The notes under the pieces are model-generated. The model was not told the DNA's origin, did not search any database, and was given only the letters and a program-made list of their open reading frames with translations. Shown here piece by piece: positions 24,597 to 47,034 of a stretch of 64,000 bases of DNA. The DNA comes from Bryoerythrophyllum caledonicum (lineage: Eukaryota; Streptophyta; Bryopsida; Pottiales; Pottiaceae), in assembly GCA_963971425.1 (NCBI GenBank), contig OZ020515.1:4766678-4830677 (forward strand), written 5' to 3'. Numbering within the stretch: position 1 is the stretch's first letter; each line of letters begins with the position of its first letter. A program made the position numbers and the translations under genes.

Positions 24597-24624
24597 AACA
24601 CCATATTCATTATATTGGGAGATT
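24597..24624 (+). repeat. Left terminal inverted repeat (28 bp)
   Basis: Starts AACACCATATTCATT and ends GGGAGATT. Exact reverse complement of 46787-46814. Preceded by TTAG. Confidence 0.8.
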
Positions 24625-24904
24625 AGGAGCCTCCCAAAATAATATGAAAAGCTTAAGCAAACCTAAATATGAAAATGTTTAGTGATTTGCATAGTAACCT
24701 TTGAATACTATCTTTCGAGTTAGGTGTCCACTAAAATGGGAGGTGCGGAATTATTTTCAATGTAAAATTAGGCTTGAAAGAAATTGAAGTACATTTTTAG
24801 CTTCAGTTAAGCTGAAAGAAAGCAATACTTACAACTCCAAATATCATTCAAAAACAAAAGATCAAATGTCAAGGTACGAAAATGCATTTCTCAAATCGAA
24901 ACAC

Positions 24905-25183
24905 AATATCAGTTCGAGTCGAGCTGAATGTGGCCCAACAATTCCTATGCGATAAAACATTCAGAATAGTAAATATCAAACGGCAAATCATCAAGCCCAG
25001 AATTCACTTCTCTCCAAGAAGAAAGCCATACACATTCAGCTCGAGCCGAGCTGAATGTGCCCAAGCAATTCCTATGCGATAAACCATTCAGCATAGCAAA
25101 TAATGAAATATCAAAACTTTGAAATATATTAATGTCCACAAGAAATGGGTGTACACTTTCAGCTCGATTCGAGCTAAAATCAC
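24905..25183. repeat. Three dispersed palindromes of the AGCTCGAGTCGAGCT family
   Basis: Copies at about 24905-24932, 25031-25060 and 25153-25183 lie just 3' of the transposase-like frame. The first two share about 45 bp of flanking sequence (CAATTCCTATGCGATAAA), so a unit larger than the palindrome was duplicated here. Confidence 0.85.
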
Positions 25184-25254
25184 ACCAACAAATTCCGATC
25201 TTATGCACACATTCTTGGATACTAGTATAAGAGTAACATCTTTGTACTAAAAAA

Positions 25255-28110
25255 TCATTGCGAAGAAGACGGCTCGGTATCCCTGATCAAACTATCTTGG
25301 ATGATTTGAACTTGATTTCTAGGTATCTTCACAACAGGATATTCACTCCTACTTCTAGACTTCCATGCAGTCAACAGAGATCCGGTGTCCTCCCATTGCG
25401 GAAGTTGCTCGTCATCAATTGTCCATTGTAGACCGTTGGAAGAGGCCCATCCATCATAGCATCTTTGGACATTTGCATCGCGCGAAGTGGGGCGGAAGTA
25501 CTGTATTTTGATAGAATTAGGCCTTTCCAGATCCGAATTAGGATCCGAGAGAGCTTGTGCAATCCAAACAGGACGTTCATCTCCATCACATGGTCTTAAT
25601 GCAACAAAATAGCCTGAGTAAACGTCTCGATTAATCCGAAAAGAAGGGGCTGGCCTATCTCGACTCTGCCCAACAAAGTGGTCATCTTCATCATGCTCCT
25701 CACGAACAGCGCCCACACTAGTGAATTGGTCCTCGATTGTCTGACCAATACGACTAGAAGGCCAAAAACCATCCTCTAGAGAGGTGGGCAAGTCCATTGG
25801 TTGACTAAGTGACTCTCTAACTGCCCGCCAATAGTAGCTCAAAGGCTCATATCGCCTTCGATATTCACCTGTACGATCCTCACGTGCTTGATGCTCCCAA
25901 TATGAAATGAATCCAGAAAGACCTTTAATCACTTCAGGAAGATTCCGCATTGCTTGTGGCTGCAATGAAGGTGGTTCTCCACGTGGCCATAAAGACCTCC
26001 CATTTGAATCCTCCTTCCACAATTTGATCCCACCCCCTTCCCTTGGAAGCCAATCATCTTGATGACAAAGAATCTTGTATTTCATCATGGGACATTCGTT
26101 GGAGTCAACAAAGAATTTGAATTGGTGAGCCTTTGTGTGGCCCTGCAATGCTTCGTCTCCACCTGCAATACCTTCACTAATAAAGGACTTGAAGTCCGGG
26201 ACTTCTTCAATCAAGTGGGGGATTGTTGGCACACTTTCGTTCTCCATAAATGGTCTCATGAGCAAAGGGATCGTGGGGAAACTCTCTTTCTTCAAAGCCA
26301 TACTCCATCAACCGAATAATGCATCAATGTCATCATGTGTGTGGCCAACAAGCATGAAATTAACATAAACCTCTCGGAAGATACCCTTTGCAACAAGAAG
26401 AGACCAAAAGCAAAACACATATCTATTTTTGTTGTCACTCACCGCATTGTCCATTTGCACATGCAAAATAGGCGGCAAAGGTTTTGCTATAGCTAGAGAC
26501 TCAGGTGCGGCACGGAGGAATGGGACACAAGTCTCTGAAGCTCCTTGCAAAACAGCTCGAAACAATGCAGTTCTCCCCGAACCCTGAAATAATTGTCGGG
26601 ACGATGTCTTCGAAGGTTGTTCTAAGTCTCGCAACAATCTAGCAAAAGATCCCACTGTATAGTTGACATCATGTGGGTAAATGTCCAAGCCATAATGAGC
26701 ATAACGAACATCACCATGACCATGTGCAAGCATTCCAGTAACAGAGATGGGCAACTTCATTAGACCATCCAAATGTTTCGTCTTGTGAGAGAAGACAGGA
26801 GATGCTGTCTTTGAGTGATCCATCTTGTCGTGCATAATCGTAACACATTCATCCGGCAACTCTTGAGAGCGGTAACGGTTGGAATAATACAACTCTCGAT
26901 GAGCCCATGCTGAATCCAAATGGAGATTCAACCTTTGCTGCCACAATAGCGCAGCTTCTGTTCCAGGCTGCTGCAATCTCCGATGGGAGTGGTACTTATC
27001 ACACGTTGAACAACGTGCAAAGTTATCCCCAGGTCGTTTTGCATTATAATCGGAAAAATGGACCCGCCTAATCTTACTCAGCCCTGAAGTGGAAATTTGG
27101 GAAAGCCCGCAATTAACTAAATGGGCATCAATTGCAGGAATTTGATCTTTCCACTTGAAATTTGCGGGAAGAACTTTGGCCACAGATGTCTCACCCGAAG
27201 GCAAGATGCGGGACTTGTGGGGCATGTGGTGAACATTCCTATTAAGGATGACACGTAATGTTGCGGTAGCGACCACTGAGTGATTTCTAGGTTTCCGTTT
27301 CCCAGTATTACCATGGGGTTGTGCGACTACACCAGCCGCTGCATCCTTGGCATATTCATAGAACGAGGTTTCACTAACGCCCATGATGTGCTGCCAGGCA
27401 GCTGCGCACACATCAACGCCCTCAATGGTCACCACATTTCTACCGTTACTGTCCACATGAAACTGCCCGTGAACATCTAGCTTCATATGCCTTCTAAATT
27501 GAACGGAAGTTCCAAAATACATCCTCATCCGCAATACCTTAATCTTCAATCGTGGGAAGCGTTGAACACAACTCCTAGAGCAACAGCGGTTTCCAGCAAT
27601 AGAGTTGATAGATTCGTCAGAGAGGAGAATTGATGATTTTGTTGAAACCATGGTTGAAGGGATTCTAGATGAACTTTCATAAGAGCGAGTCCTCTCTCCA
27701 AGAGGTCGGGTTCTCATTGCCATTACAGAATTGTAAGTATCACGCTGCTGGTGATGCAAGAGACTGATACTATTATAGAAAACTTGACCAATAGGCCAAA
27801 TCTTAACACAATAACGCCATTCATCCGGGGCTTCATCTTCAACTAATGTCCTGGAGACCTGAATGGCAACATGCGTATCACCTAATGGAGCATCAATCCC
27901 AGAAATAGCTGTGGTGTGGAAGTTACGAAGTATTCCAGTGGCAATTGTAACATCGGACAGGTTTTTCATTTCGACTATCTTACCAACCCAAGAATGCCTT
28001 GGGAGAACTTCGAATTCCATCAAATCAGCATCTACTGGATTGTGGAAAGACGAGTTGTCACTTGACAAATCAAAATCATCGTCGATTGAGGCACCAGTTA
28101 AAGTGTCCAT
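25255..28110 (-). pseudogene. Transposase-like protein (about 950 aa) with one in-frame TGA
   Basis: A minus-strand ATG at 28110 opens 600 codons that end with TGA at 26308-26310 directly after VGHTHDDIDALFG. The same frame continues with W-S-M and 348 more codons to 25255. Related proteins I recall read GRWSM here, so CGA to TGA is the simplest explanation. The part before the stop holds ILHVQMDNAVSDNKNRY and LDIYPHDVNY, with VGHTHDDID giving spaced D, D and H/D residues compatible with an RNase-H-like integrase fold (inference). A cysteine cluster (CSTCDKYHSHRR) precedes it. Families with this signature (I associate it with DUF7869, from memory) are large and uncharacterised. The acceptor TTTGCAG lies seven bases before the ATG, so the 5' UTR is spliced. 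Confidence 0.65.
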
Positions 28111-28244
28111 CTCGGCACTGCAAAGTTAAGGCGAAAGTGTAAATAATTGTCGTAGTATAATAGTACTCCAAGGTTCATCCCACATCAATCAAAGCAAACA
28201 AAAAAAAGCATAATTGTTCATCTCCTCGAATAGGTGAAAACAAA

Positions 28245-28516
28245 GCACATTTAGCTCGAGTCGAGCTGAATGTGCAGTGCATATTCAGCTCGACCCGAGC
28301 TAAATGTGCAGTGCATATTCAGCTTGAGTCTAGCTGAATATGCATTGCACATTCAGCTCGGGTCGAGCTGAATATGCACTGCACATTTAGCTCGTGTCGA
28401 GCTGAATATGCACTGCACATTTAGCTCGCGTCGAGCTGAATATGTAGTGCACATTCAGCTCGAGTCGAGCTGAATGTGCACTGCATATTCAGCTCTACCC
28501 AAGCTGAATGTGCACT
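28245..28516. repeat. Array of eight palindromes with exact 34-bp period
   Basis: Palindromic units of 31 bp start at 28245, 28279, 28313, 28347, 28381, 28415, 28449 and 28483. Each consists of a GCAYATTYAGCTCG arm, a 2-4 base centre and the inverse arm, followed by a 3-base spacer (AGT, ATT or ACT). Arms alternate between CATATTC, CACATTC and CACATTT, and individual units carry substitutions in one arm only. The array lies in the presumed 5' UTR intron of the transposase-like gene. Confidence 0.95.
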
Positions 28517-28730
28517 GCTTCAAGCTAGAGTACTAAATCAAAACATGAAGCACTCATACCAACAAAAACTACGCATTTTGACAGTTGCAAGAACACATAT
28601 GTCATACTGAGGTACAAATAAGAAAATGAAGCCCTAAACCTGTACTACGGAGGCGATTGTGTTGACGCCGAAGTATCACCTCATTCCTACAACTTTTTCA
28701 TTAGGCCAAAATCTATGTATGTCCTTTAAA

Positions 28731-29564
28731 GTTGACCTAGAATAATGTATCCACTTCTTGCTAGAGTACTGAATCAAAACCTGAAGCACTCATACCAATA
28801 AAAACTACGCCTTTTGACAGTTGCAAGATTATAAATGTCATACTGACGTACAAATAATAAAATGAATCCCAAAATCAGTACTAAGGAGGCGATTATGTTG
28901 ACACCGAAGTATCACCTCCTTCATACAATTTTCTCATTACATTGAAAATGATAGTATCAAATGTGCAAATCAAATGCCAAGTAAATCACCATAAAGTTTA
29001 GACAGAAATCACTTACAAATGGTCCGATTGCGTGCACCAAAACGTCTTGAATGAAGAAGGAAGAGAAAACCCTACTCTTTCTCACGGCCGCAGCAACCAT
29101 TCACGACCACACACCTCCGCATCTCTAGAAATTCCAAACACAACTAAGTTGACCTAGAATAATGTATCCACTTCTTGTTAGAGTACTGAATCAAAACCTG
29201 AAGCACTCATACCAACAAAAACTACGCCTTTTGACAGTTGCAAGAACATATATGTCATACTGACGTACAAATAATAAAATGAATCTCTAAACCAGTACTA
29301 AGGAGGTGATTGAGTTGACACCGAAGTATCACCTCCTTCCTACAACTATTTCATTATATTGAAAATGATAGTATCAAATGTGCAAATCAAATGCCAAGTA
29401 AATCACCATAAAGTTTAGACAGAAATCACTTACAAATGGTCCGATTGCGTGCACCAAAACGTCTTGAATGAAGAAGGAAGAGAAAACCCTACTCTTTCTC
29501 ACGGCCGCAGCAACCATTCACGACCACACACCTCCGCATCTCTAGAAATTCCAAACACAACTAA
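28731..29564. repeat. 417-bp tandem duplication covering a presumed first exon and promoter
   Basis: GTTGACCTAGAATAATGTAT begins at 28731, 29148 and 29565, giving two full 417-bp copies. A shorter relative of the first half precedes them (about 28524-28715). On the minus strand each copy contains GACGTTTTGGTGCACGCAATC followed by CCATTT and GTAAGTG, a good splice donor, so each could supply a non-coding first exon for the gene whose ATG is at 28110. Each copy also holds AAGGAGGTGAT inverted 19 bp later, a potential hairpin. The shift between copies suggests recent duplication. Confidence 0.75.
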
Positions 29565-30099
29565 GTTGACCTAGAATAATGTATCCACTTCTTGCAAAGA
29601 AATTTGACTTCGAATGCAATAGGTCTTTCAAATGTCAAGGCATACTTCGAGACAGTATAGATTCACGAAGGCTTACCATATTAGAAAGGTGCAAATAGAG
29701 AGAGAGAGAGAGGGAAAAGAGGTTGGGGTGTATTGACCACGTCGAACAAGTTGCCGTTAAGAAAAGAGCCGGAATGACATCACGTTTAGTGGGGAGGAGC
29801 TATTCTAAATAAAGCATCTTTCAAACTTGACCAAAAAATTAACAAGCACATAAGTTTCTCCTCATATCTCGATGTATTGGAAGTTTCTATTTACATGATC
29901 AGTTTAAGGTTATCGATTGGGGTTATGGGTATCAATTTAAATATGCAAGAATCAATTTAAATTTAAGGTATAGAATTATGTATCAATTTAAGGTTATCAA
30001 TTGGGGTTATGGATATTTGATTACGGTCATTTATTTCCATATTAAGGATATTGATTATGACTAGATTATAAAAGTAAAGATTTAGGTTTAGGGTTGAAA

Positions 30100-30370
30100 T
30101 TACATTTTGACATTTAGGGTTTAGGGTTTAAGGTTTAGGATTGCAAGTCCATGGTATGAAGTGTAAATTATAGGGTTTAGGGTTTCGGACTAGACAATTC
30201 TAGAATTAGATTTATGGATTTGGGTTTAGGGTTTAGGTTTAAGGGTTTAGTTATTAGAGTTTAAGGTCTTATAGTTTATTGTTTAGGTTTAATGATTTAA
30301 AGATTAGGGTTCAGGGTTTTAGAGTTTTGTGTTTGGGATTTAGGATTAGGGTTTAGATTAGCATCGAGAT
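30100..30370 (+). repeat. Degenerate interstitial telomere-like repeats
   Basis: Many overlapping GGTTTAGGG and TTTAGGGTTT motifs, interrupted by other AT-rich sequence. This matches the Arabidopsis-type telomere unit TTTAGGG. The surrounding 29600-30100 is AT-rich with a GA microsatellite at about 29699-29715 and shows no gene. Confidence 0.7.
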
Positions 30371-30649
30371 TACCACTGAATCAAAATGTCCTTTCTATAA
30401 GATTGTTTATCGTATCAAAATTGAATTGTGCCTTGGTATTGATTTAAGAAAATTCATTACATATCACCTAAATATAAGATTTAAGAAGTCACCACTAAAA
30501 GTTTCATTTACTATAATGGCACGAATAGTGTACTTTCCGTAGTACACTAATTGCAAACAAGTTGACAAATAGTCTACTAATTGCAAACAAGTGTACTTTC
30601 TCAAAAGATTATTTGATCAAAGTTTACATTATCCAAGATTACTTTATCG

Positions 30650-31150
30650 GAGTACACTTTACGGAAATTTAATTTGTTTAAAACTTACTTTTTCAAGAGA
30701 TTACTTTTTCAAGTTTTACCTCTGAAAAAGTTTACTTTTTCAAATTTGACTTTTTCAAACATTTACTTTTTAAAACCTTACTTTTCCTAACCCTTACTTT
30801 TTCAAAACTTTACTTTTTCAAAACCTTATTTTTTCACTTTTTCAAATCTTTACTTTTTCAAATGTTTACATTTGGAAAAGCTTTTTTTTACAAAAGTTTA
30901 CCTTTGCAAAAGGTAAGTTGTCTTTTTTCCCTGAATTGATGTTTTTTCCTATTTCTTGTTTTTTTCAAAAATGTTGTTTTTTCCTAATTGTTTTTTCCTA
31001 ATTGTTGTTTTCGCAAAAATGTAGTTTTTTCCTAATTGTTTTTTCCTAATTGTTGTTTTCGCAAAAATTTAGTTTTTTCCTATTTGTTGTTTTCCCAAAT
31101 TTTTGTTTTTCCTAATTGTTGTTTTTTCCCAATTGTTGTTTTTTCCAAAA
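30650..31150 (+). repeat. T-rich short tandem motifs
   Basis: Repeats of TTTACTTTTTCAAAAC (to about 30870) are followed by repeats of TTTTTTCCTAATTGTTG and TTTTCGCAAAAAT (30940-31150). Simple low-complexity DNA, no gene seen from 30370 to 31850. Confidence 0.7.
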
Positions 31151-31859
31151 ATTTTTTTGTGAGTTTTAGTTTTACTCTTCTTCACCTTTTAGTACACATA
31201 ATTCTCTTCTACTTTCAATACACTAAACGTGCACGAGTAAAAAAGTTAATATTCCAATCTTTACAAAAGTTCACAAATAGTGTAGTAGTTCACATTTAGT
31301 GTACTATTTTGTCACTACACTAATTGCGTAGTTGACAATTACTGTATGGGTTCGTATTTAGTGTCCACTACACTAAATGAAACTTTTAGTGTACTTCATC
31401 TCATTTGTTATGAATCAATATTTACTCTTTTGAGTTGACTTTGCTAGATGATCTTGTCTCATGCGATATTGATTCACTTGCTATTATTAATTTATGTGTT
31501 TTATAATTCAAATCATCTTTGACCCTAAAGGCCCAAGAGTTCCCTCGAAGGATTCTAAGAATTTTTGGAAGTTCTTATAGAGTCAATTTATAAGTTTTTT
31601 GGTGTCGGCTCTAATAGCGCATCCATATCCTTTGATCGCAACATTATGCAATTGTCGCCATTATGGACATAAGTTTGAGTGCCTTCAAAAAGTTATGATC
31701 GCAATGTTTTTTAATGTCATTCAAACATATTGCAAGTTGATGTGTAACTTTGCGCACTTGCAAAAGTTTGGTTCCATCACTCTTCTCTTTATTGCAAACG
31801 GTACTACCTTACATATGCATTCTTTCACACAAAATTCATGCGTTACATATTATACATAA

Positions 31860-32789
31860 GTATTTTCTGAAAAAGAGCCACATTGGGAGAACAAAAAGTT
31901 TGAGAAAAGTTGGGAAAGTGTATATGAAAATAATCAGTTGCAACCAATAACATCAACTGCTGTATTATTGCTTGATGGTAATACTATAATCAACAATAAA
32001 ATATTGGATCCAAAAAACATATCACTGAAAGAGATTTTATTTATTTATATCCCAAAAATATGGGATAATGATGTTGAATATCAAAGAACATTAGAGGCCG
32101 CAGATATATATTATCAGACCGCTCCATTTGTAGGAAAATCTAATCAAAAAGACCCAAAACGAGGTGTTTATAAGTCTGTAGGCCACGGCTATGTTGTCCA
32201 TGTAGGAGAAAAGTCAAAAGGAGATATCGTTAAGTATGATCGTAAAAACATGTCTGGAGACACAAAACGTTCCTTGAGGAGCACAGAAAATTCTATTGCA
32301 ACGGCAATGTGGAAGGCGTTAAATTTATTTGGAGCTCCTGTAAATTTAGAGTTTTTTGCTCATCAATTTCAACATATGGATTGTATCGCAATTGAGTTGA
32401 AAGCATATCCAACAAAAGTGCACCAATTGCACTTGTCAAAGAATTCTTTTATAAAGCCACATATTGATAAAAATGACTTGGATTGTTCATTTATATGCTG
32501 ATTTACAGAAGGACATCCGCAAGGAGGCGAATTTGGAATCTTTCAACACTGCATGAAACTTCAAAATAATAATGGAGCAGGTATATTTGTATTTAGCAAA
32601 TATGTCAGCCACGGAACGCTACCGTTCGATGCCAATTCACTATCAACTAATAATCTCAAATTGGGCCTAGCCCTTGTGAACAAATCGGCAATTCGTGAAA
32701 GGCTATCAAATCAATTAATAAGTGGAACACCTATCACTTGGATAGATTATATTGATCGTCTAGATAGTGAAAGTCAACAGGAAAAATGA
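31860..32789 (+). pseudogene. 2-oxoglutarate/Fe(II) dioxygenase-like protein with one in-frame TGA
   Basis: The frame is open from about 31860 (FSEKEPHWENKKFEKSW) to a TGA at 32499-32501 and continues in the same frame to 32789. Visible core motifs are KNSFIKPHIDKNDLD (the H-x-D iron ligands), then after the stop FTEGHPQGGEFGIF and SKYVSHGTLPFD (candidate distal His). This order matches the double-stranded beta-helix dioxygenases. The GGEF context and the partner genes recall TET/JBP-type nucleic-acid oxygenases, but this is inference. A TGG to TGA or CGA to TGA change would explain the stop. An upstream exon probably exists: AAG at 31858-31860 follows a T-rich tract. The arginine that binds 2-oxoglutarate is not obvious. 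Confidence 0.5.
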
Positions 32790-35680
32790 ATAATTGATTT
32801 GTAAAGTGCAATTTTTGACCTCCATGCATGGATAGATGCAGGAATCAGACTCTTTACAATTTTTAAGCTTTCAAGCATAGGATCTTTTATCTAAATCTAT
32901 CTAGAAGTATTGTTGTACATTTCATCTATAGGATGTGCATCATTTTTGAGATTATAACATTTGAAAATTGTCCTCAAGAATTTATTGTGCTCTTAGAAGC
33001 TTGAAATTACAAAACTACAATTTTCTACCACTATGTGTTTATTGAAGCATGGATCATATATTTTTTGTTTCTTATAATTTGAACTATATGATCTCAAAGA
33101 TGATTATAACAAAAAAATATTGATTCAAATTTCAACCCTAACATGTGCACCAGATTTGAGATCATAACCCAGAAAATGACGGACATTCAAAAATCCATTC
33201 CCCAAATTTCTGCAAACCAGCCAATATTTATCAGTTTCATCCATTCAAAATTTTTCATCCAACATGAAAATCTCATCCTTCACTGCCAGATACATCCATC
33301 TCATCCTTCATTGTCGGATACATCCATCTCATCCTTCACTGCCGGATACATCCATCCGAGACGCCTAATTTTCATCCAACAGTTGAAAAACATCCACAGA
33401 ACCTATTTCATCCACACAAATTTGTCATCCGAAATAATTTTCATAGACTGTATTATTTCATCTAGATTTTCTATGTCATCCAAAGTGTATGACGTGGCAG
33501 GGGGTCCATCCCCACAACCCTTTATTTTGAAAACTGCCCATCTAAAATTCAGTGAAATTTATTTTGTCAACTTCAAAAAATTCCCAAAATTCGAGTTTTA
33601 CTCCGATTGCGTTGAAATTTGTTTTGGTGATACTTCTCATTTACCTCAACATATCTACCATTCGGATTTCCAATTGGACACATTTAGATTACCCTTTTCA
33701 TAGTTTCTATTCTGGAGAATGAAAGACAATTTCAGCACACCCCCTTTCACAAAATCAAGGATTTGTTCCACTTCCAAAGCCCGTATGAGGCTCAAACTTT
33801 GTGAGCTTATACCTTACTTCCATACCTAAAGGAAATGATGATCCTCTATGGATCAAATGTGTTTACAAATTATACTTTTTGGGCATCAAAACTTAGGTAT
33901 ACCCTCGGGGAAGTGTCAAAAAAAACTTTTACAGTGACTTCAAACGTTATAATCTTGCAATTCGTACGGTGGATTGTGCTCAAATTTTGCATACACCTTT
34001 TTGGGTAAGGTAGTTACAAGATCCTACGGTTTTATATTCAATATCATGTCTAAATTTAGAAAACAGTAGGTTTCTATCAGTAGGGGTATGTTTTTGGCAG
34101 TTTTGGCTCCAAAAACACCATGGTTAGTTAGGGGTTAAAATGGTTGAACTAATGCGTTGCAAAGCAAGCGCCAACTGCTAGTATGTATTTGAAAATACAA
34201 TCTCATTATTGAAGTTTCGTTTCACAACATATTAGGATTCTCAATCCATGAAAGATATTTGATAGTTTTCAAAATTAGATTTTTAATTTGAAGCCCCCTC
34301 ATCCAATCACTAGATTCCAATCTACTTAGATATTTATTTAAACTCACTATTTTATCCATGATATTGCCATTAGGCCAAAATCTATGCATGTCTTTTAAAT
34401 AATATTAATTTTTTTGAACATATAAAAACTTTGGAATTATATTTTTGGTTTTTATATATGTGCTATCACGAAAAGAAGAAGATTAAAAATTGCAACTCAA
34501 TTGTTTAATCATAAATCTTCCGAAAACAAGAAATTAAAAAAATAAAATTGTATAATCCCAGTGTCTTTGATTTGCGTTCACTACAAGAAGTTTTTGAGTA
34601 TGATATATACAAGCCTATAGAGTAGGTGCAAAATGTATATAACACTAAAGGACCAAAGTCTCCTTCGGGGGGATTTCTGATTTTGGGCAGGTTCCTAAAA
34701 CTCAAAAAAAAATAAAAATTCTCTAAATTTTTTATTCTAGATTGCCTCTCATAAGAGCTTCGTAGACGTATTTTTATTTCATTTTTTGGATTTGTGGTTT
34801 GATGGTTAGTACAACTTAAAGCCAAAAGTGGGAACACCGGGCACCTCCAAAATTGTTGACAAAAGTTTCTATTGACATTGAGATTTTTCACACATATATA
34901 TAATATTTCCTTTTTTGGAAATTTTCAATAAAAAAATCTTGTCTTTAGTGTAAAATGGCATTTTATTCCAAGTCAAACATTTTCACACATTGTCGGGCAA
35001 CGGGGGAAAAAACTTCATCTTTTCTACATAATACCTAGAGATCTTCAAATTTTTCACTTTTTATTTTTTCAACAACAATATGTGGTGAAAACCTTCTTAT
35101 TGACCGTTTGGATTATCATTTGAATACATACGTAGTTCACAAAAAAATAAAACGTGAAATGGCAATCATTGAACCTCCACTCCTTGCACACTTGTTTTGA
35201 ATATGCTACACCCCTTTTCTACCTCTAAAAATTGGTGTGTTGGGAAATAACATCATGCTTAAGACAATGGTAAAATATTTAGACCTTGTACAATGCAAAA
35301 ATTTGATAGGCAAAGAACCAAATCAAATGGACAAATTATAAATTGAAATGAGAAATTTTAGGCTAAAATCAAAATTTTAGCTGCTTTGGTCTTCCCAAGA
35401 TGAGATTTGTGTAAAACCCATATATTACAGTTTTAACTTAGTTGCATTTTGGAAGATAATGGACAAGGTAACCTTTTGTATCCAATGAGAACTCATAATC
35501 AACACCAATAAAATTAGGGTGCACAATTGACTTCCATCCCATTACCACCTATTTAGCTCCAAGTGAAGGTTAGCGACTCAAAAGAATCCCGTACTTTTTG
35601 CAATTAGTGTACGTGTTTAAATTTAGTGTTCACTACACAAAATGCGAATTTTAGTTTAGTATTTATATAAAAGAGATATA
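32790..35680. other. AT-rich spacer inside giant element; no gene recognised
   Basis: Contains three 30-bp tandem units (CATCCATCTCATCCTTCACTG type, about 33270-33360). Sequence at about 31310-31390 recurs in direct orientation at 35595-35650 (CACTACACTAAATG-type DNA), bracketing the dioxygenase-like gene. A 30-bp piece near 34365 (TTAGGCCAAAATCTATG) also occurs at 28710. Frames in this interval are short and without recognisable motifs. Confidence 0.5.
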
Positions 35681-35689
35681 CTCGTCGAA

Positions 35690-36063: not shown

Positions 36064-36657
36064 GTAAGCCTACGCCGAGAGGCCTGTGAGTTTGAAGTTT
36101 GAGGTTTCGTGGGATCGCTGGTTTCATGGTTTAGGTTGATTGCTGGTTTAGGGTTGATCGCTGGTTTCGTGGAATCGCTGGTTTAGGTTGATCGTTGGTT
36201 AAAGGTTGAGAATCACTAGAAGAAGGGTCGGAGTTGATTGCGTTCTGAAGGTTTGAGGTTGAGGTTTTTGAGGTTTCGGCTTCAGAGAAGTTCTGGAGGT
36301 TGAGGTTAGGGTTTGGGTGTCGTTGGTTGCGATTGGTGATGTTGGATTTGTCTGTGAGTTTTCTGAGTGTAGATTATGAGCATTTATGTGTTTATGTGTT
36401 GAAACTTGTGTCGTGAATCAGTGTTGTGTTGTGAATCAGTGTTGATTCATGAATCAGTGAATCAGTATTGACGTGAATCAGTGCTTTAATTATTTCGATT
36501 TTTTTTCTCGGTGATCTAACGGCTCGTGATCTGGCAGTGACCGGCCCTCAACATTGTTCGCATGATCAGGCAGTGACCGTTCTCAAGACTGTTGACGTGA
36601 ATCAGTGCTTGATTTCTTTTGAGATATTTTTGGCACATACGGTTAGCCTTCTTGCCT

Positions 36658-36767
36658 GCCACAGCTTTTATCTAGAGATTTTCCTGTATCTGGTGCTAGC
36701 TGAATTGTGATTGCCACAGCTTTTATCTAGAGATTTTCCTGTATCTGGTGCTAGCTGAATTGTGACT
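36658..36767 (+). repeat. 55-bp tandem duplication
   Basis: GCCACAGCTTTTATCTAGAG starts at 36658 and again at 36713, with two essentially identical copies head to tail. Confidence 0.9.
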
Positions 36768-36980
36768 CCTAGACTCTATGCTAAGTATCTTCAGCGTAGT
36801 CAATATTAATAACATGACACTGTTTACGGCTACAGGCAGAACTGTGCCTACTTCGTCAATGAACCAGTTCTCTTCCTGTAAACTACCAATTCTTAAGATG
36901 ACAAAGGATCAAAGAAACACCTTGCTGAATTCCGCTGCAATCTTGTCTCTGTCTGTGATTTCCAATTGTGTCGTTTTCAG

Positions 36981-37110
36981 CTGCTCATAGAGGTGAACGA
37001 ATGCTCTTAATGCAGGCAACCAGCTCTGGTTCCAAGGACCAAGAGGATGTGAATTCCCTCGAAAAGAAGATTATGAATAATCTGCAACTCTCGTACGAGG
37101 AAACCGTTCA
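36981..37110 (+). other. Exon-like captured segment, gene unknown
   Basis: TTTTCAG precedes 36981, and a second acceptor-like TGCAG occurs before 37015. The frame reading SGSKDQEDVNSLEKKIMNN then LQLSYEETVQ ends at a good donor (CAA then GTGAGT). This is the pattern of a real exon, but I do not recognise the protein. It may belong with the first exon at 35690-36063 rather than with the ANGUSTIFOLIA piece that follows. Confidence 0.4.
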
Positions 37111-37758
37111 AGTGAGTCTCCATGCTAGCTGCATTGAAGGTTTGAAATTGTTAATTTGCTGAGAACTGACTTGTACTTAGGTTATCTGATTACTCCTGTC
37201 TTTGTGGGGTCCAACAGTCAGCGATTTCATGCTTGCAATCAATTCTTTTGGAGGACTTCAAGCCCACTGAAATTGAGGTGTTATTTCGTCCCTGAGGCTT
37301 AATTTGAGTACTTCTGTGACTTCATGAAAAACAGTAGAAAAAATCATCATCTCCAATTCTTAAGCTTAAAACAGTTCTTTACTTTAAGTGATGTATGTGT
37401 AAGGATGATGTATGCATACTGGAAGCTGCAAAAAGTCTTTGTAAATTATAGCATAGACTGGGTGTCTCCAAATACAGTACTGTTTTGAAGGCTTTCAGTG
37501 AATCCACTCGAGTTTGCTGGAATTTATTGTTTGAGATCAACATATGGATGAGTTGTTGAAGCTATCGCATGTCATGGTAGTGCAGCTGTTGAATGGTGTG
37601 GGTAGTGTCTCAAACCTTCTGAATTCTAATAATGTATCTTTTACCCTCAAATTCTAGGAGAGGGTTACATTCCACAGCATAAAGCTTGTATTTTTTTCAT
37701 ATGTGGTTGCATCAAGCTGTTTCATTTTTTATGATCCTTCCTAACTTTGCTTTTTCAG

Positions 37759-38287
37759 TGCTCGGAGCCAAGAAATTGAACAGCTTGAAGGAGCTGCTCG
37801 CTACCAGTGACATAATCACGCTGCATTGTGCGCTTACTAACAACACTCTGCAGCTCATCAATGCGGACAGTCTCCAGCACATCAAACCAGGTTCGTGCTT
37901 AGTGAGCCTCATCAAGCAAACTGGATTAGGTTATGCTAATAAATTCAGGTGTGGATTCAATTATGGTCTCTGATGACCAGTGGTTCTGGACAGGTGTGGT
38001 AGTGGTGATTGTGAGTAGCAGCCACCTGCTGGACGATTGTGCGTTGAAGGAGGTGCTCATCAGTGGCACTGTTGCTGGCGTTGCCTTGGATGTTATTGAA
38101 GGGCCCTAAAGGCTTGAAGCTTGGGTACATGATCTTGCGCGTGACTTCCCTTGTCTTTCTGTACTCAACTTCATTTTATATTGTTGTTCTCCTTCCACGG
38201 GTGAGAGAGATGCCGAACGTGCTAATCCTTCCGTGTAGTGCAGACTACAGTGAAGAGGTCTTGGCGGAGATACGGTCAAATGCTTGA
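37759..38287 (+). pseudogene. AN: ANGUSTIFOLIA (plant CtBP) gene fragment with premature stop
   Basis: Three pieces match the dehydrogenase-like domain of ANGUSTIFOLIA in order. They are SLKELLATSDIITLHCALTN to LQHIKPG (37759-37908, after acceptor TTTTTCAG), SSHLLDDCALKEVLISGT to ALDVIEGP (about 38014-38106), and VREMPNVLILP with SADYSEEVLAEIRSNA (38201-38284). A TAA at 38107-38109 replaces the Gln of the conserved EGPQ. About 100 bp of extra sequence separates the first two pieces. Upstream and downstream exons of the gene are absent. Intron-like sequence is retained, so capture was at DNA level. The intact protein is a cytoplasmic/trans-Golgi and nuclear regulator of cell shape; this copy is non-functional. 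Confidence 0.8.
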
Positions 38288-38611
38288 CTCTAGGAAGAAG
38301 TTGCATTCACAGTTATACGGGTTCACCTTGGGATGAAATCCTTGTGATGTTGTAATTTATTGTAAGTTGGGAGTTGATAGGTTTTCAAGTTGTAGAGTTT
38401 CGGCCACTCATCTTAGTTTTGAGTTTCTAATAGTGATTGGATTACGATTCAAAGAGGGGACATTTTGTCACTGAAGCAGCTCTCTTGTGTGAAATACCTC
38501 AAGCCATTTGTTTGAAGATTCAAGAGGTTGCAAAAAATGGAAACGAGGTACGTAGACTCCTACGGAACTTGCAATTTGAATGAATTTTGTAATTTCTCAT
38601 TCATATAATTT

Positions 38612-39264
38612 GTGCATATTTAGCTCGAGTCGAGCTGAATATGCACAATTGGTTGATCACGAGATGCATATTCAGCTCGGGTAGAGCTGAATGTGCACAT
38701 TCAGCTTTGAATGATGTTTATATTCAGCTCGATTCGAGCTGAATGTGCAGCATATGATGAGCTTTGTGTGCACATTCAGCTCGGGTAGAGCTGAATGTGC
38801 ACGTTCAGGTTTGAATGATGTGCATATTCAGCTCGACTCGAGTGGAATGTGTAGTGAATGATGAGCTTTTAGTGCACATTCAGCTCGACTAGAGCTGAAT
38901 ATGCACTTCTGGCTCATTAGTGTGTGCGCAAGTGATTGATAATAATGTGCACATTAAGCTAGAGTCGAGCTGAATGTGCATCTAAATTTCAGCTATGTGT
39001 GCACATTCAGCTCGACTCGAGCTGAATATGCACGTTCAGTTCATAAGTACATGGGTGTTACATTATTATTAATCAGCACATTTAGCTCGACAAGAGCTGA
39101 ATGTACAATTGAAATGGTCAAATACTTTAAACACACGCAAGTGGTAATGCAATACTTAAAACTTAATGACGGTGGTAATGCAATACTTAAAACTTAATGA
39201 CGAAACCACACTTGTGCAAGTCAGTGTTGTATTGCATATTCAGCTCGATGCGAGCTGAATATGC
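38612..39264. repeat. Ten dispersed palindromes in presumed 5' intron
   Basis: Copies start near 38612, 38664, 38720, 38768, 38820, 38872, 38947, 38999, 39076 and 39234. Most are flanked by GTGCA...TGCAC, so the fully extended unit is about 35 bp. They differ at the centre (CGAGTCG, CGGGTAG, CGACTCG, CGACTAG) with compensating and non-compensating changes. Spacings are multiples close to 52 bp for several neighbours. All lie between the ANGUSTIFOLIA fragment and the splice acceptor at 39338. Confidence 0.9.
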
Positions 39265-39345
39265 ATACTTGAGAAAAAATTGTAATGCATTGAGTACGCA
39301 TAGTAAAAATCTGACTTCACTTACGGACTCCTTTGCAGAAATCCA

Positions 39346-42300
39346 ATGAATGACCAAGAGGTCCTAGAGCAATACTATAAACCAACAAGTATTGTGATCG
39401 AGTCCGACGACGGAGAGGAGCACGAGTTACTCAACTGCTACGAGCTTCGAGATCCAGAGAGGCATGAGGCGTGGGGGTTCGAACATATCGGTCACTCTAA
39501 CAGCCTGGTGTTGACTCATAAATTTCGAGGCATGGATATGTTCTTGCACGTTTCACCGAATGAGAAGATAATCAAGTTTGACCACCACAAGAAATTTCTC
39601 GTGGTTAAAAGTGAGACGACAACTGAAAGTAGTCTTCAGTACACGGTTCTCATCGACTGCATGACTCAAGTCTTCAGCCTTGATCCATTTCTCGACAGTA
39701 TTGAGAACTCATTGTTTGAGTCAATAAAAAAGGACGTCCTCAAACAACAGGACGAAGATTACTGGAAGAGCAGCATTGGTGGGCCTCTTCGTGCTAAAGC
39801 TTTGTCATCGAAGTTGACAAGTCTCCTCCATGCAATGGCGATGAAGGTTCTTCAAAACTCGCAGACCTCATCCGAGATGACTCCAGTGGAGATCTCTCGT
39901 AGGACCGAGAGTGGCATCGTTAGCCAAGGCGGTAACACTGGACAGAGGACTGCAGCGGCTCGAACTGGTAAGGCAAATCCGAGGAAGTCGTTGTCTGCAA
40001 ACCCAACGCCACCGAAGAGGCAGCGTCGATCACTTGCTCCGGAGGCTTCAACTCGAAGAGTACTTAAAACTAGTGCAAAAAACCAAGAAGTTGGTAAGCC
40101 AGACGGTGAGGCCAGCATCGTCTCTGCGATCACCGATCTGCCGCACGAGTTGCGACCTGGAGAAGCCATTGACTACGGAAATACATCCGAGGTGTACGAA
40201 AAGCTCTGGACAGATTGCCAAGACTGCTTCCTCTACGACCCTGACATGAAGAAGGAGCTGGACGTGCGGCAGTTATCACCAGCACTAGAGGACTGGACGA
40301 TTCGGGCCTTTGAAAAGAAAGGCATGGACGTGGTAATGAATTACCTCATCAACATGCCCGATAAATCCATCAAGCAGACGCTTTGTGTTATGCCGATAAC
40401 AAACAAGAAGCCTGATGGAGACTGGGAAGACATTCAAAAGGGAAAGTTCTACATCATAAATAGTCAACATAGCGTGGCGGCAAGCTTAGCAATGATGGCG
40501 GATGAATCTATTGATGAGACCACAGTGAGGCACTTTCGCGTATGGAAGTGCTTTGTCGTATGGTCCGATGACAAAGAGAAGCTGCGTAAGATCTCGGCAT
40601 TCTACAACCGAGTCGATCACTTGTCCGTCTTCAAGCCAACGTGGTCGACCAACATCCTGTCTGCACGGTCGACATGGACAAATCTAGGTCGCCCAACACC
40701 ACCACAGAAGAAGAATACGCCGGGTGGCCGTGGAGCTCCAAGAGCCAACGACAAGGCGTATAAGGTTAGCAATCCTGATTGCGATTGCATATTTAGCTCG
40801 AATCGAGCTGAATATGCAAATCCTTGTGAATGCATATTCAGCTCGACTCGAGCTGAATATGCAAACCCTTGCGAATGCATATTTAGCTCGACTTGAGCTG
40901 AATATGCACATCCATGTCAACAATTGTTCACTTTTACTAACACTATTGTTTTGCCTCCTGCAAGAGTTCATTGAGGCCATTCAACGTCGGTTTGCCTGCA
41001 TTGACGTTGCAAAGAACCAGCAGTATGCTAGCAAATCTAGTCAGGTTCCTCAGCTGACTCTCTCAAATGAGGTAAAGATTATCACGTCGCCTGATTCTAC
41101 TTTCAATCTCTGGCGAGATGTGATGGCCGCAAGTGCTCAAGGCGACTTGATTGACGTTGACACCAACCCCCTTTGCAAATTCAAAGACAACCTGAAGTCG
41201 ACGCCAACGAAGGATGGTGGTTTGAATCGAGAGTTCTTCAAGTGGCTCAATGGCCTCACTGATGCAGATCATGTGAAGTTGTTGAACCATATTTTGAACC
41301 GCAGCGGACCAAAACGGCGACTGCAGTACCCGAAGGTGGTCATCAAGACACCAACCAGCGTATTGGATAGTAACTACACGGTTGGGGATTGGATCGAGGG
41401 GCGCAAGAGGAAGAACGTCGTCCGAAGGGAGTTGCAGAAACTAAAGCCTAGTCTTGCATTTTTTGATGCAAACAAAAATTTGGTTCCTGGAAACTGGAAG
41501 CGTTTTAAGCGCGAATATCACTTCTCATCCGCAACCATGAGGGTGCTTGTCGATCAATCCGGTGAGGCATTCTTCACTGAGGCGCGACAGCTTCGGAGCA
41601 AGAACAAGTCTGCGGAGGAGCTATCGCCATACGCGGAAGCTTGGTTTAAGTTGTTCTTGGACAAGCGCCAACACTTTGAAGAAGCGTCTGGGTTTGCATA
41701 CATTCGGAAGTACAACATCATCAATGATGCGTTGGGTGTGTGGCCCGAAAACACATGGGATCCCCACGGCGAAAAGCCTCGGCTTGCATTGATTGATTTC
41801 AGATCAGCTCCCGGGCAAGATTTGAAGCCATCATCAACGGTGGCTAATCCATTCTTCAAGGACTTCATGGAGGCATTGCGGACTGGAGGCAGCCCTACAC
41901 TGACAGACCCAGATGTTTGGCTATGGATTTGTGGGACCAAGACAGAGGAGAGGCAAGTCTTCTTCATAACCGAGAAGTCCTCATTTGTGGACGAATACGT
42001 GACATACAGTTCCGCATACATTCCTGGTAAGTATGAGCGGCTCGATGATGTGCCGTTAGGCAACAAGTTGTCGAAAGATGCTGTGGAACTTCTTTGGCTA
42101 GTCCGTAAGCCATTTGCTCGCCCAAACTTAGTTACAAAGGAGTATGTCTATCCGCTTCATGTTGCAAACACCAAGGCCCGCAAGTACAACGAGTTGGAGT
42201 ATCGTGTAAACACTACTGAGTTCACGATGGAGTTCTACTTTCAAGTACTCAAAGAATGGTGGAAACCCGGGGACTTAGTCTCCTCTGCCTTTGGAGGCTC

Positions 42301-43596
42301 AAAGTTTCTTATTGCATCTATGGTTCGAATTTATGCCGAGCTCTCATGTTTGCATATTCAGCTTGACTTGAATTGAATATGCAAGTGCTTCTCGATCATT
42401 AGTTCTGAGTTGCATATTCAGCTCGAGTCGAGCTGAATATGCAAGTAGTGTAGTTTCATGGAATGCAAATATATGATGCTTAAGTTAGTTTGATTGATTG
42501 CTAGTGTCTTTGGTGTGCCTTGCAGATCGAATCTCTAGAGTGTGCCTACATTTGCGAGACTTCTGAGAGTGATCGGTACGAAAGCAAGGCCAAGTTGGCT
42601 TTGTCTCTATGCAAAGCGGATTTCGTTGCCGACGGTTATCCAGTTGACGAGACAAAATATCCTGTTAAGCCCCCTCGTGGTAAGGGTAAGGGAAAGAGAC
42701 GAGTTGATGACGACGATGATAATGAGGAAGATGATGATGAGCAACCTACTGTGGATGTTATGAGGTCAGATGTTGCTGTAGCTGAGCCATCAGACCCCGC
42801 TTCTGCTCGCGTTAATGAAGGCGTAGATACTGGTGTATTTTGTGCGAATGATTATGAGGATCTTGCTCTTCGTCGGTCTAGTGTGATTGTAGGTGGTGCT
42901 GGTCCATCCAGCAATCGATCGCAGAGTAGGGCTGATTCCTCAGGTGGAAATACTGACGATGACGTTGAAGTGATGGCTTCTGCACCAATGCCCCCGCACA
43001 AGCGCCAACGAACTCCTGTGATGGTTAATTCGCCTGCGCTATCCACGTCCCCTCCCACGGCACAAGCCGATATGGCATTGAAGGTGGAGATGCTCTTAAA
43101 GAAGGTCAAGGAGCAAGAGAGGCTCAACCAAGAGTTGTCAAGACGGCAGGAAGAGCGCCAAGATGAGCTCCTTGCAACGCAGAGGGCCGACATGGAGCGG
43201 AACACGCAAGCGATGATCGCTTCTATGCTTGCAAGATTTGAACAGATGTTGCCACCGCAATCCAAGCCGATAGAGCATATTTTGAGTGCAACTCCTGAGG
43301 CGGCTGCAAGACCATCGTCTCAAGGCCCTATTGTTATAGAGACGGTCGCCTCGTTTGGAGAGACGTCTGTCCAACAGTCTTTGCTGACATCGGATCCGAA
43401 GACGTCTTCTCCTCTTTCACCGCCACAAGCGATAGCCTATGTTGGAGCCGAGCGCATGGTTTCCGCCGATCCCAGTGTTCAGCCAAACAATGTGATTCCG
43501 GTGGAAGAGACAGAAGTTGCTAATGAAGTCAACACACCGAGCAACAGTCAAGCATCTCCAGAACACTCTTCAGGTGGAATTCTCGATGAGAACTAG
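39346..43596 (+). CDS. ParB-like domain fused to degenerate DNA-methyltransferase-like domain (three exons)
   Basis: The acceptor CTTTGCAG ends at 39338 and the first ATG is at 39346. Exon 1 (39346-40764), intron (40765-40966), exon 2 (40967-42322), intron (42323-42525) and exon 3 (42526-43596) join in phase 0 and give about 1280 residues without a stop. Residues about 330-440 (KFYIINSQHSVAASLAMM, then VRHFRVWKCFVVW and KLRKISAFYNRVDH) resemble the ParB/sulfiredoxin-like fold, although the usual G-x-R signature reads NSQHS. Exon 2 ends with WWKPGDLVSSAFGGSKFL and continues IESLECAYICETSESDRYE, like motif I and the acidic loop of amino-DNA methyltransferases. The position expected for DPPY reads IDFRSAPG, so catalysis is doubtful. 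Exon 3 is acidic then coiled-coil (about 43080-43260). It may splice on to the FCP1-like exon. Confidence 0.6.
40787..40907. repeat. Three palindromes with 45-bp period inside intron 1
   Basis: Units start at 40787, 40832 and 40877, separated by AATCCTTGTGAA-like spacers. Together with spacers they make up about two thirds of the 202-bp intron, suggesting the intron grew by, or consists mainly of, palindrome units. Confidence 0.95.
42351..42443. repeat. Two palindromes inside intron 2
   Basis: Copies at 42351-42383 (GCTTGACTTGAATTG centre, partly decayed) and 42411-42443 (perfect AGCTCGAGTCGAGCT core with TGCATATTC arms). Both lie in the 203-bp intron between the methyltransferase-like motif I and the following acidic loop. 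Confidence 0.95.
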
Positions 43597-43903
43597 TATA
43601 TCGAGTATTCTTGTTGTTGTTAATTATATTTCCCCAATTATTTTCGTACATTAACTTCTGTTCGAAAATAATCTTGGATGTTTATTGTCCTTTTAAACCT
43701 TGGTTGAGTAAATTCGATGTTGCTTCCATTTCGAATCTCCTTAATCACTTCCCTTTGTTGTATATTGTTTTCGTCTTGATCCATTGATTTTTTATTTTTA
43801 GACTACACTTAAGTTAAAGTAAATGTACTGCAGATGAGTAGTAGTATATCTCTCTATGTTTTGATACGTTTAGTCCTTGTCCTAAAGTCATTGTTACTTC
43901 TAT

Positions 43904-43936
43904 TGCATATTCAGCTTGGCTCGAGCTAAATATGCA
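43904..43936. repeat. Palindrome between exon 3 and the FCP1-like exons
   Basis: TGCATATTCAGCTTGGC followed by the imperfect inverse. A further degraded relative (GTTAGAGTCGAGCTCAAT) lies near 44049-44072. Both fall in the interval 43574-44149, which would be an intron if the two genes are one. Confidence 0.85.
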
Positions 43937-44149
43937 TTACTTTTTGTATTTCATGTTGTTCTCCCTCTGTGTGCATCATGTTGAAATTCAAGTAGTCCTC
44001 TCCCTTGTGTGCATCCAATTGTTAAGTACTCATACACTTGCACAGTCAGTTAGAGTCGAGCTCAATGTTGATCATGTTTAGTATCAACTGCCGTTGCATT
44101 TTTGGGGCATGTTTGTTCATAACCTATAATTAAATGTGCTGAATTTCAG

Positions 44150-45203
44150 ATGCCCTAAGCCTCGAAGTCGATTTCATAAAAGATGATGCTGGCTCTTCTG
44201 AGCATACTCCTATGGTTGGTGCAAAGCCCATTGATGCTACTTTGGCCATCAACTCACAGGTATAACTTTAATCTCACCACTTCATGGCCTTATTGATTGT
44301 GATGTCTTTTGCAGTGCTTCCTTCTCGTATAATATTATGTGCTCTTTGGTTATATATTGTTTCATGTTTAGTAACATGTACCTCCACTCTTTCCCATCTG
44401 AATTCCAGGTAGTCGAGCCTCTGGAGAGCGTTCATAGCGCCGTAGTTCATGTTCCTCGTTCAACCCCTAGAGTGGTCAAACCGTGGTTAAACATTGTGTT
44501 TGACTTGAACGGTATATTGTGTGTGTGTGAGGAATTTCGCTTGAGGTCTACTACGCAAGCCTTCAATGCATGTTCTCTACCACACTCGGTAAAAGTTCCA
44601 ACCAAGGTCGGCCCAAAGCTAGTGTATGTTCGTCCAGACTGCAAGGCATTTTTGGACGCTGTTTCCAAGTTTGCATCGATATCGGTCTGGAGTTCGATGA
44701 AATTGAACACCACTAGTAGCATCGTCAATTACCTCTTCCCAAAAGCGGCCTCACCAAAAGTCATATTTGGGCAAGAGCATTGTAGGAGAGTCGTAACTGC
44801 TGTGATCCATAATGTACCTCAATATCTGAAGGTTAAGAACTCAGATAAGGAGGTATTTCTGAAGACGTTGTCGAAAGTCCTATTTACTGAAAAGGGTGTC
44901 TCCTTTACGAAGGAGAATACTATCATCATAGATGACAGTCCGTACAAGCACGTCCTTAATGATCCAGAGAATGTGCTTCTTTCGGATACTTGGTCCTACA
45001 AAGGAGATGGATGGAACGATAAGTTCCTCCTGAATGTCTTGCTTCCATGGCTGCAAAAGCTCCACAGTAGTGCAGAGTTAGGGCTGCGATCTTTTCGGCG
45101 TGAGAATCCCTTTGGTCGTCTGACGATTTGCTCGGATCCATATAGCTTAGAGTACATGGAATTAACGCACGCGATTATGATATCTGATGGGCTCGCAAAT
45201 TAG
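44150..45203 (+). CDS. FCP1-like (HAD-family) phosphatase domain protein with DxN active-site motif
   Basis: Exon 44150-44259 (acceptor AATTTCAG, donor CAG then GTATAA) joins in phase 0 to 44409-45203. The second exon encodes an FCP1-homology domain: PWLNIVFDLNGILCVCEE near residue 35, VYVRPDCKAFLDAV, SISVWSSM, LKVKNSDKEVFLKTL, NTIIIDDSPYKHV and WSYKGDG. Active FCP1 enzymes have D-x-D-x-T/V and dephosphorylate RNA polymerase II tail or similar substrates. Here the second Asp is Asn (DLN at 44502-44510), while the later DDSP is kept, so activity may be altered. The first exon has two bases before its first full codon. The ParB-like gene offers a donor at 43574 (TTCAG then GTGGAA) with exactly the complementary phase, so a single fused protein of about 1575 residues is possible. 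Confidence 0.65.
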
Positions 45204-45400
45204 AAGTTCTTTGGTATCAATCATAAATGTGTTATACTATACATATCTTGTAAGTCAAGTGGCAGTTGCCAGTTCTTTGATATTTGTTTGTAATTTTTCA
45301 TTTGTTATTGTTGAATTTGAAAGTTTTTGTTTTCTCTTTGCTTCCATGTTTAAAAAAGAGCCGTTAATCATTTTCTCACGTAAACTATTGTATTGCCACC

Positions 45401-46445
45401 ATGGATTCTGTTTTGAAGTTAGAAGATTATGGATATCGAATTCCACGTAAACATAACGATTTGTACTCCCGCGGAGCAGCTGATTATTTGATGGACTCTT
45501 TGATGGCTCCAGTTGAAGAAGAGGAAGTAAACAGCCCCCCACCTAAATTTTGCATTCAAAAGGTTGCCTCCCGTTCTATTCTTCAACCTCGTCAAATTTT
45601 GGTGTTCCCCAGTGTTGATAGGATTTGTGGGAAAGGTGACCAACTGCTTGTTCGCGGACGTGAGGAATCATTGTCACTTCCCCTACGTAGCATGGTATTC
45701 CCCCCCTCCCCTTCTCTGTATTTGTCCTAGGTCTTTTTTGGCAATGTGCACATTCGGCTCGAATAGAGCTAAATATGTACAAGTTGCATTTTAACTCTCT
45801 TTGTCCCTACGTCATAGGATCACGTACTTCAAACACTTGCTGGTGTAATTCAACCACCTACGACGGTGCCGTCAGAGATAATGCCCACAAATCCTACAAC
45901 GTGTGGGCCTGTTACAACGGTCGGAAATGATGAGAACAAGATTCAATCTCTAAGTGAGAAAACGCATTCTAATATTGAGGTTGATCTTATTTTTTGTTAT
46001 TGTTTAGTATGTGTTGTATCTTCTCCTCTTAATCATCACTGTTTTGAGTTTGCATGTTTCACGAACACCTAAATTGGACAGGATTATTGAATGGATTCCA
46101 CGTCATGGTGTTTGTGTTTTTTTTGACATGTGTGGCTACATATTCAGCTTGGTTTTAGCTGATTTCTGTGGTCTCTTTTGCTAGGTGCTTCAACCAACTA
46201 CCGAGCGTCAAAGTGCTTCCCCAAAGCATGGTTTAAACCAAAACTCAAAGCGTCACTCTCGCCGTCGCCACTCGCTTCCTGTGCCTATTGTTACTTGGAA
46301 TCAACGAATGCAACGCCAACGACAGCAAGAACATATACGTGCTAGTCAAATGCCATATACCGGTTACAGCGGCAAAGATGAACTTCAGAGGGGTAGGGAT
46401 GAGCTGAGGAAGTCTAATTCTGGTGACGTGGAGAAGAACAAGTAG
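45401..46445 (+). CDS. Small basic protein, three exons, unknown
   Basis: The ATG at 45401 has a strong context (GCCACCATGG). Exons 45401-45694, 45818-45979 and 46185-46445 join in phase 0 with GT-AG borders to give about 238 residues. The N-terminus (MDSVLKLEDYGYRIPRKHND) and middle contain no known domain. The C-terminus is basic (KRHSRRRHSLPVP, RMQRQRQQEHIRAS) and might bind nucleic acid. Intron 1 holds a palindrome (45745-45780) and intron 2 a decayed one (46139-46162). It lies 200 bp after the FCP1-like gene, on the same strand, and is the last gene before the right inverted repeat. Confidence 0.6.
45745..45780. repeat. Palindrome in intron 1 of the small basic gene
   Basis: TGTGCACATTCGGCTCGAAT followed by the imperfect inverse ending ATATGTAC. 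It lies in the 123-bp intron 45695-45817. Confidence 0.85.
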
Positions 46446-46467
46446 ATTTATGATCTAAGTGGTACAA

Positions 46468-46502
46468 GTGCACATTCATCTTGGCTATACCAGAATGTGC
46501 AT
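46468..46502. repeat. Decayed palindrome 3' of the small basic gene
   Basis: GTGCACATTCATCTTGG pairs imperfectly with CCAGAATGTGCA. It is the rightmost copy in the window, about 285 bp inside the right inverted repeat. 46503-46786 shows no gene. Confidence 0.7.
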
Positions 46503-46786
46503 TGACTAGGAATTAATGTGTATGTTTTTGGTCGTAGTGGAAGCCTTTTTCTGCATGGAAAGGATGATGCATGTTTTGTATATGGCTTACTTCTATCATA
46601 TTATAAATATAGTCTAGAATTTAAGATATTATTTCATTTGATTCTCCAATTTGGGTACTGTTTGCCCATACATCTTCATATTTTCTTACAAAAATGGTGT
46701 TGTACTTCTATTCTAATCATGTTTGCTTCATCACTACGGTAAAATATTTGGATTACTCAAGAGCGTGTACCTCCTAAATCCCTGGA

Positions 46787-46814
46787 AATCTCCCAATATA
46801 ATGAATATGGTGTT
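46787..46814 (-). repeat. Right terminal inverted repeat (28 bp)
   Basis: Starts AATCTCCC and ends ATATGGTGTT, the exact inverse of 24597-24624. Followed by TTAG. Subterminal sequence beyond 28 bp is only weakly similar between the two ends. Confidence 0.8.
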
Positions 46815-47034
46815 TTAGGGAGAATTAGGATAGGAAAGGAATAGGACCCTAGGGAGGTGCTAAAAGGGATAAGTGGTGGTTTAACACCGGATCCTAACAC
46901 CCTTGTCAAACGGGTGGATCGAGGGCGCGGAAGGGCCTTACACCACGAAAGCTCAACCGGCACCAACAAGGAAGGTCCACCGGCACCGACAAGGAAGGTA
47001 CGTCTAAGAAGCTCCAAGCCAAGTATAAAGCCCG

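Follow-up and report, generated by a model that had tools for sequence, protein, structure and literature searches.

We report that a 22,218-bp interval (24597-46814) within a 64-kb stretch of the genome of the moss Bryoerythrophyllum caledonicum (the window, by which we mean the whole stretch that was analysed) is very probably one copy of a multicopy family of giant cut-and-paste transposons, most likely of the Sola1 type. The interval is bounded by exact inverted repeats and a 4-bp duplication, similar ends are paired at other places in the genome, and the genes between them include a transposase-like gene and a second gene with a ParB-type fold. A 34-bp palindrome repeated throughout the element is perhaps the binding site for the ParB-like protein.

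Ends and copies of the element

The exact 28-bp inverted ends with TTAG outside both of them, as described in the original prediction, were found where it had placed them:

24593-24596, no strand: 4-bp target-site duplication TTAG, left
24597-24624, plus strand: 28-bp terminal inverted repeat, left, AACACCATATTCATTATATTGGGAGATT
46787-46814, minus strand: 28-bp terminal inverted repeat, right, the exact reverse complement of the left end
46815-46818, no strand: 4-bp target-site duplication TTAG, right

No other match to the 28-bp end was seen in the window at up to 3 mismatches (0 matches were expected from 100 shuffles). Scanning the genome (437 Mb, 894 contigs) for the 28-mer at up to 2 mismatches gave 2,230 places, 1,118 forward and 1,112 reverse, and none for the reversed control. 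Pairing was analysed for 100 listed termini of the 2,230, all exact and on one contig. Sixty of these formed 30 forward-reverse neighbour pairs, 162 bp to 44.2 kb apart, and 28 of the 30 pairs had identical 4-bp flanks; the remaining 40 termini lacked a partner nearer than 45 kb among the listed exact matches, and partners with one or two mismatches are absent from this list. The suggestion that the terminus might be a common repeat, dispersed singly and without duplications, is correct as to its abundance; the pairs with identical flanks do not fit the rest of it, and the 40 unpaired termini may include lone or broken ends.

Listed termini running forward then reverse (n=35) were separated by 162-237 bp in 20 cases, 7,471 bp in one, 18.1-23.4 kb in six, 33.8-44.2 kb in three and more than 72 kb in five; the flank comparison took in the pairs up to 44.2 kb. 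One of the six pairs at 18.1-23.4 kb was a copy among those already fetched. The other five, together with the three at 33.8-44.2 kb, are known from their ends alone, and a 4-bp duplication was present in all eight.

Alignment of seven other left ends showed that homology broke off precisely at base 1 of the terminus, with unrelated flanks beyond it. Six of these seven loci were fetched as stretches of 29.6-29.7 kb. Five of the six included a right end, each with identical 4-bp flanks (GTAG, TTCT, AATC, CTTT and CCAC, for copies of 23,372, 17,151, 23,906, 22,973 and 22,096 bp, respectively). The right end of the sixth (L018-L020, contig C15) was not found within 29.5 kb; retroelement-like frames were seen inside this copy. 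The genome search for paired termini with 4-bp duplications, proposed with the original prediction, was therefore successful: all 14 tested end pairs of at least 17 kb were duplicated (the window and 13 others), and among the 15 pairs larger than the miniatures the 7.5-kb pair was the one exception. The dispersed copies of 17-24 kb comprise five seen in full and five seen by their ends, in addition to the three longer end pairs.

The 20 shortest pairs (162-237 bp) fell into two miniature classes with the same ends, 162-163 bp and 236-237 bp. Both ends were present in 20/20, the 4-bp duplication in 19/20 and a single palindrome (allowing up to 3 mismatches) in 19/20. Having the same ends and duplication size and being too short for genes, as is the rule for miniature inverted-repeat transposable elements, they are derivatives of the giant element's family.

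Genes within the element

The following frames and fragments were located between the ends:

25255-28110, minus strand: DUF7869 transposase-like gene (Pfam PF25273; 103 homologues; in-frame stop at 26308-26310)
31860-32786, plus strand: oxygenase-like frame, family unproven (motifs resembling HxD...H by eye; stop at 32499-32501)
33176-34135, no strand: about 960 bp unmatched in six other copies, which share 1.8-2.8 kb of different sequence there instead
37683-37970, plus strand: exon-like fragment, partial 2-hydroxyacid dehydrogenase NAD domain (Pfam PF02826; PDB matches; in six of six other copies)
39346-40764, plus strand: ParB-fold exon 1 (44 homologues; AlphaFold2 (AF2) model; structural matches)
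40967-42322, plus strand: exon 2, possible N6/N4-methyltransferase-like part, weak (36 homologues)
42526-43596, plus strand: exon 3, possible methyltransferase-like end and low-complexity or coiled tail (purifying signal)
44409-45203, plus strand: last exon of a NIF (CTD-phosphatase-like) gene (Pfam PF03031, E 1.4e-17; purifying signal)

The AF2 model of the closest DUF7869 relative has a core resembling DDE transposases and integrases, preceded by a helical region, and the DUF7869 protein is predicted from this model to have an RNase-H transposase core. Its named homologues are moss proteins, the best being those of Ceratodon purpureus (58% identity) and Physcomitrium patens (54%). An uninterrupted transposase frame is present in another genomic copy; the window copy is broken, with stops in both the transposase and the oxygenase-like frame, so that any movement of the window copy would probably occur in trans. 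No mention of DUF7869 was found in the literature searched. This Pfam family gains a likely role as a transposase. Sequence searches of the PDB with the transposase, the NIF frame, the oxygenase-like frame and the ParB exon profile returned nothing useful.

The ParB-fold protein and the NIF-type phosphatase are encoded opposite to the transposase strand. Among the 50 structural matches listed for the exon 1 AF2 model, the top 10 were all ParB, Noc or KorB proteins; direct sequence matching of the exon to ParB families gave 0/26 members with Pfam and 1/26 (E 0.11) with PHROGs, and the likely ParB identity of exon 1 is visible solely via the predicted fold. N6_N4_Mtase was matched weakly in 2/24 exon 2 relatives (best E 0.0035), and no methyltransferase match was obtained for the spliced accessory sequence of the window, a product of 1281 residues with splice sites picked by eye. 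Two homologues of the accessory gene are labelled as uncultured cyanobacteria; we suspect moss DNA in those cyanobacterial bins.

Four of the six other copies contain DNA for the DUF7869 gene, accessory exons 1-3, the dehydrogenase fragment and the NIF exon, with exon 1 reduced to 77% in one of the four. Of the transposase, 36% is retained in the 17-kb copy, and the sixth copy was visible only as far as half of exon 2; several frames are broken in at least one copy. Gene content is thus related between copies, where unrelated content had been named beforehand as evidence against a single family. The oxygenase-like frame was complete in 3/6 of these copies, partial in 2/6 and missing in 1/6, and is uninterrupted over 305 residues in another copy; a TET/JBP or 2-oxoglutarate (2OG) oxygenase identity was set aside as unsupported, with no Pfam family match. 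PDB matches of the dehydrogenase fragment include CtBP and formate and lactate dehydrogenases. The unmatched segment at 33176-34135 suggests that the window copy was probably rearranged there.

Selection was assessed by comparing the window with the six other copies and placing the same changes randomly, to give nonsynonymous/synonymous ratios (N/S) relative to neutral. The copies are related and the z values are approximate: N/S was 0.65 for the transposase (z -3.0), 0.47 for the ParB exon (z -5.6), 0.66 for accessory exon 2 (z -2.4), 0.63 for exon 3 (z -2.2) and 0.47 for the NIF exon (z -3.8), whereas the oxygenase-like frame had no purifying signal (0.96, z 0.1). The transposase, accessory and phosphatase genes therefore look like genes of the element, unlike the oxygenase-like frame. 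The original prediction of a mobile element that carries a transposase-like gene of its own along with others is upheld by the end pairs and duplications; its description of the other genes as cargo was wrong in part, three genes being under purifying selection and the oxygenase-like frame not.

The 34-bp palindrome

We examined the window for the palindrome TTCAGCTCGANTCGAGCTGAA at up to 3 mismatches and obtained 27 sites, all between 24908 and 45773 and none outside the interval (shuffle expectation 0), in agreement with the earlier statement that a palindrome family is confined to it. None of the following has an assigned strand:

24908-25178: three subterminal palindromes (starts 24908, 25035 and 25158)
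28250-28508: 8 palindromes arrayed at a 34-bp period, immediately before the transposase frame
38619-39259: 10 palindromes arrayed mostly at a 52-bp period, immediately before the ParB-fold gene
40792-40902: three palindromes in intron 1
42417-42437: palindrome in intron 2
43910-43930: palindrome (motif scan)
45753-45773: palindrome roughly 1 kb inside the right end (motif scan)

Seven copies of the element hold 17-29 sites each, largely in the same places; the first array is deleted from the 17-kb copy. Genome-wide, 7,239 sites were found at up to 2 mismatches (control 0). Among 76 distinct listed sites, 66 had a listed terminus no more than 25 kb away (random-position mean 8.3); by clusters, 28/34 lay within this distance and 6/34 farther away.

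For exon 1 and exon 2 homologues from other sources, the conceptual translation continues past the splice donor into palindrome-encoded peptides in 15/44 and 11/36 proteins, respectively, compared to 0.4% and 0.3% for shuffled-protein controls; the peptide patterns were picked after some of the peptides had been seen. The patterns occurred in 0/80 when the search was limited to the first 80% of each homologue of exon 1 or exon 2, and in 1/103 of the transposase homologue set used as a control, near the N-terminus. The peptides past the splice donors indicate that distant relatives, at about 30-57% protein identity, have the palindrome in the same introns.

Surroundings within the window

Left of the element, direct repeats at 1065-1364 and 13075-13374 (99% identical, 12,010 bp apart) enclose frames resembling gag, reverse transcriptase and integrase, as recognized by eye, and are probably the ends of a 12-kb long terminal repeat (LTR) retrotransposon. 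The segments 5742-8371 and 19243-21683 are inverted and mostly 94-98% complementary, and include arrays with 47-bp spacing. Low-GC arrays of short TTTTTC-type repeats occur inside the element at 30655-31190; 58271-58470 consists of 200 N. No tRNA genes were found in the window.

Proposed mechanism and alternatives

The DUF7869 protein would act as a DDE/D transposase cutting at the 28-bp ends, and insertion would proceed by a 4-bp stagger. We consider it very improbable that a transposase encoded elsewhere moves these ends and that the element took up its DUF7869, ParB-fold and phosphatase genes as cargo from a host or virus. The broken transposase frame of the window and the captured look of the dehydrogenase exon fragment would fit such an origin, whereas a gene set largely common to the other fetched copies, purifying selection on three genes, widespread homologues of the transposase and accessory exons, and a predicted core resembling DDE recombinases all argue for genes that belong to the element.

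The palindrome may be a cis site for an element protein, as suggested by the arrays before both genes, the sites in introns and close to the left end, and the retention of the palindrome in miniatures. Bacterial ParB proteins bind palindromes, and the ParB-fold accessory protein is for this reason the first choice as the binder; its role may be to mark the DNA of the element or to compact it, and a methyltransferase activity may contribute. Weighing against site-specific constraint, a prediction that palindromes would be more conserved than adjacent sequence was not borne out among copies of the family: palindrome divergence was 6.6%, compared to 3.4% for other non-coding DNA, and this held equally within introns. 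The same lack of conservation between copies, together with the placing of palindromes in introns and in tandem arrays before genes, would suit palindromes that act as RNA or DNA hairpins (regulators of introns or promoters, or small-RNA triggers) or are selfish repeats within the element, rather than binding sites for transposition. This explanation is possible, if somewhat doubtful, since 19/20 of the gene-less miniatures, from both classes, keep one palindrome and the core motif stands at the same intron positions in distant relatives.

A stronger contender, to which we give a little under even chances, is that the element is a Sola1 transposon in which the ParB-fold protein has no special function, being an ordinary DNA-binding subunit, and the palindrome is a subterminal repeat bound by the transposase. 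Transposase-bound subterminal repeats are usual in several transposon groups, three palindromes lie less than 600 bp from the left end, and a helical region stands ahead of the core in the transposase model; the largest arrays, however, lie well away from both termini (at 28.2 and 38.6-39.3 kb), beside two gene starts. The ParB-palindrome reading can also be extended to a plasmid-like self-recognition, in which the ParB-fold protein would load at palindromes, spread and mark the DNA, whether by methylating it or by acting as a clamp, and the transposase, with its BAH-like domain, would thereby find, pair or protect it, with miniatures parasitising the system through their one palindrome. We regard this extension as unlikely. 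If the ParB-like protein does bind the palindrome, self-recognition or protection of 20-kb transposon DNA becomes directly testable; a ParB fold of bacterial type, carried by a transposon of a eukaryote, is here tied to a concrete candidate DNA site, and the 163-bp miniatures are natural minimal substrates.

Comparison with known elements

Scans of a viral collection with protein P0001, 22 bp of the terminus, the palindrome and alignments A1 and A2 gave no relative. The Sola superfamily, reportedly described by Bao et al. in 2009, is said to have a DDD transposase, to which three conserved aspartates in the transposase of the moss element may correspond. Likenesses are the 4-bp duplications and the inverted ends of about 30 bp: the moss ends are 28 bp and exact, and Table 2 of PMC6875170 gives the Salpingoeca Sola1 a 32-bp inverted repeat and a 4-bp duplication. 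That element has one gene in 3.3 kb, whereas the moss element is nearly seven times longer and multigenic. A Physcomitrella Sola1 is listed among plant elements in Table 1 of PMC9033089.

Several accessory genes, one of them oxygenase-like, are likenesses to KDZ (Kyakuja-Dileera-Zisupton) elements, which carry TET/JBP oxygenases as described in PMC12730594. Zisupton duplications, however, are 8 bp, and the oxygenase-like frame here is without a Pfam family; KDZ membership was set aside on duplication size (4 bp, not 8 bp). ParB-methyltransferase proteins also occur in green and red algal transposons, as PMC12477816 reports (its refs 50, 51); the likeness is a ParB-type domain on an accessory protein, and the difference is the host group.

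The closest layout is that of Sola1-1_Ec32 from the brown alga Ectocarpus, a giant Sola-1 of 21.5 kb with a gene for ParB plus methyltransferase opposite the transposase, and PMC12477816 describes accessory genes and broken transposase copies for giant families. The comparison was made by description of size and gene layout. Both elements are about 22 kb with a ParB-like accessory gene on the strand opposite the transposase; they differ in the brown-alga host and in the N4C/N6A methyltransferase domain named there, which is weak in the moss element. The word palindrome is absent from the main text of that paper (term count 0). Given the Ectocarpus giant Sola-1 with ParB (PMC12477816), the Salpingoeca end sizes (PMC6875170) and the Physcomitrella Sola1 listing (PMC9033089), the original prediction that no described plant superfamily has this combination is probably wrong, and the moss element is filed as a probable giant Sola1-type family, placed by its end and duplication sizes and by described gene layout. 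With it, the moss genome gains a family of giant, gene-rich elements and their miniatures; apparently new are the land-plant family, the miniatures and, judged by the term count in the text of that one paper, a palindrome common to distant relatives.

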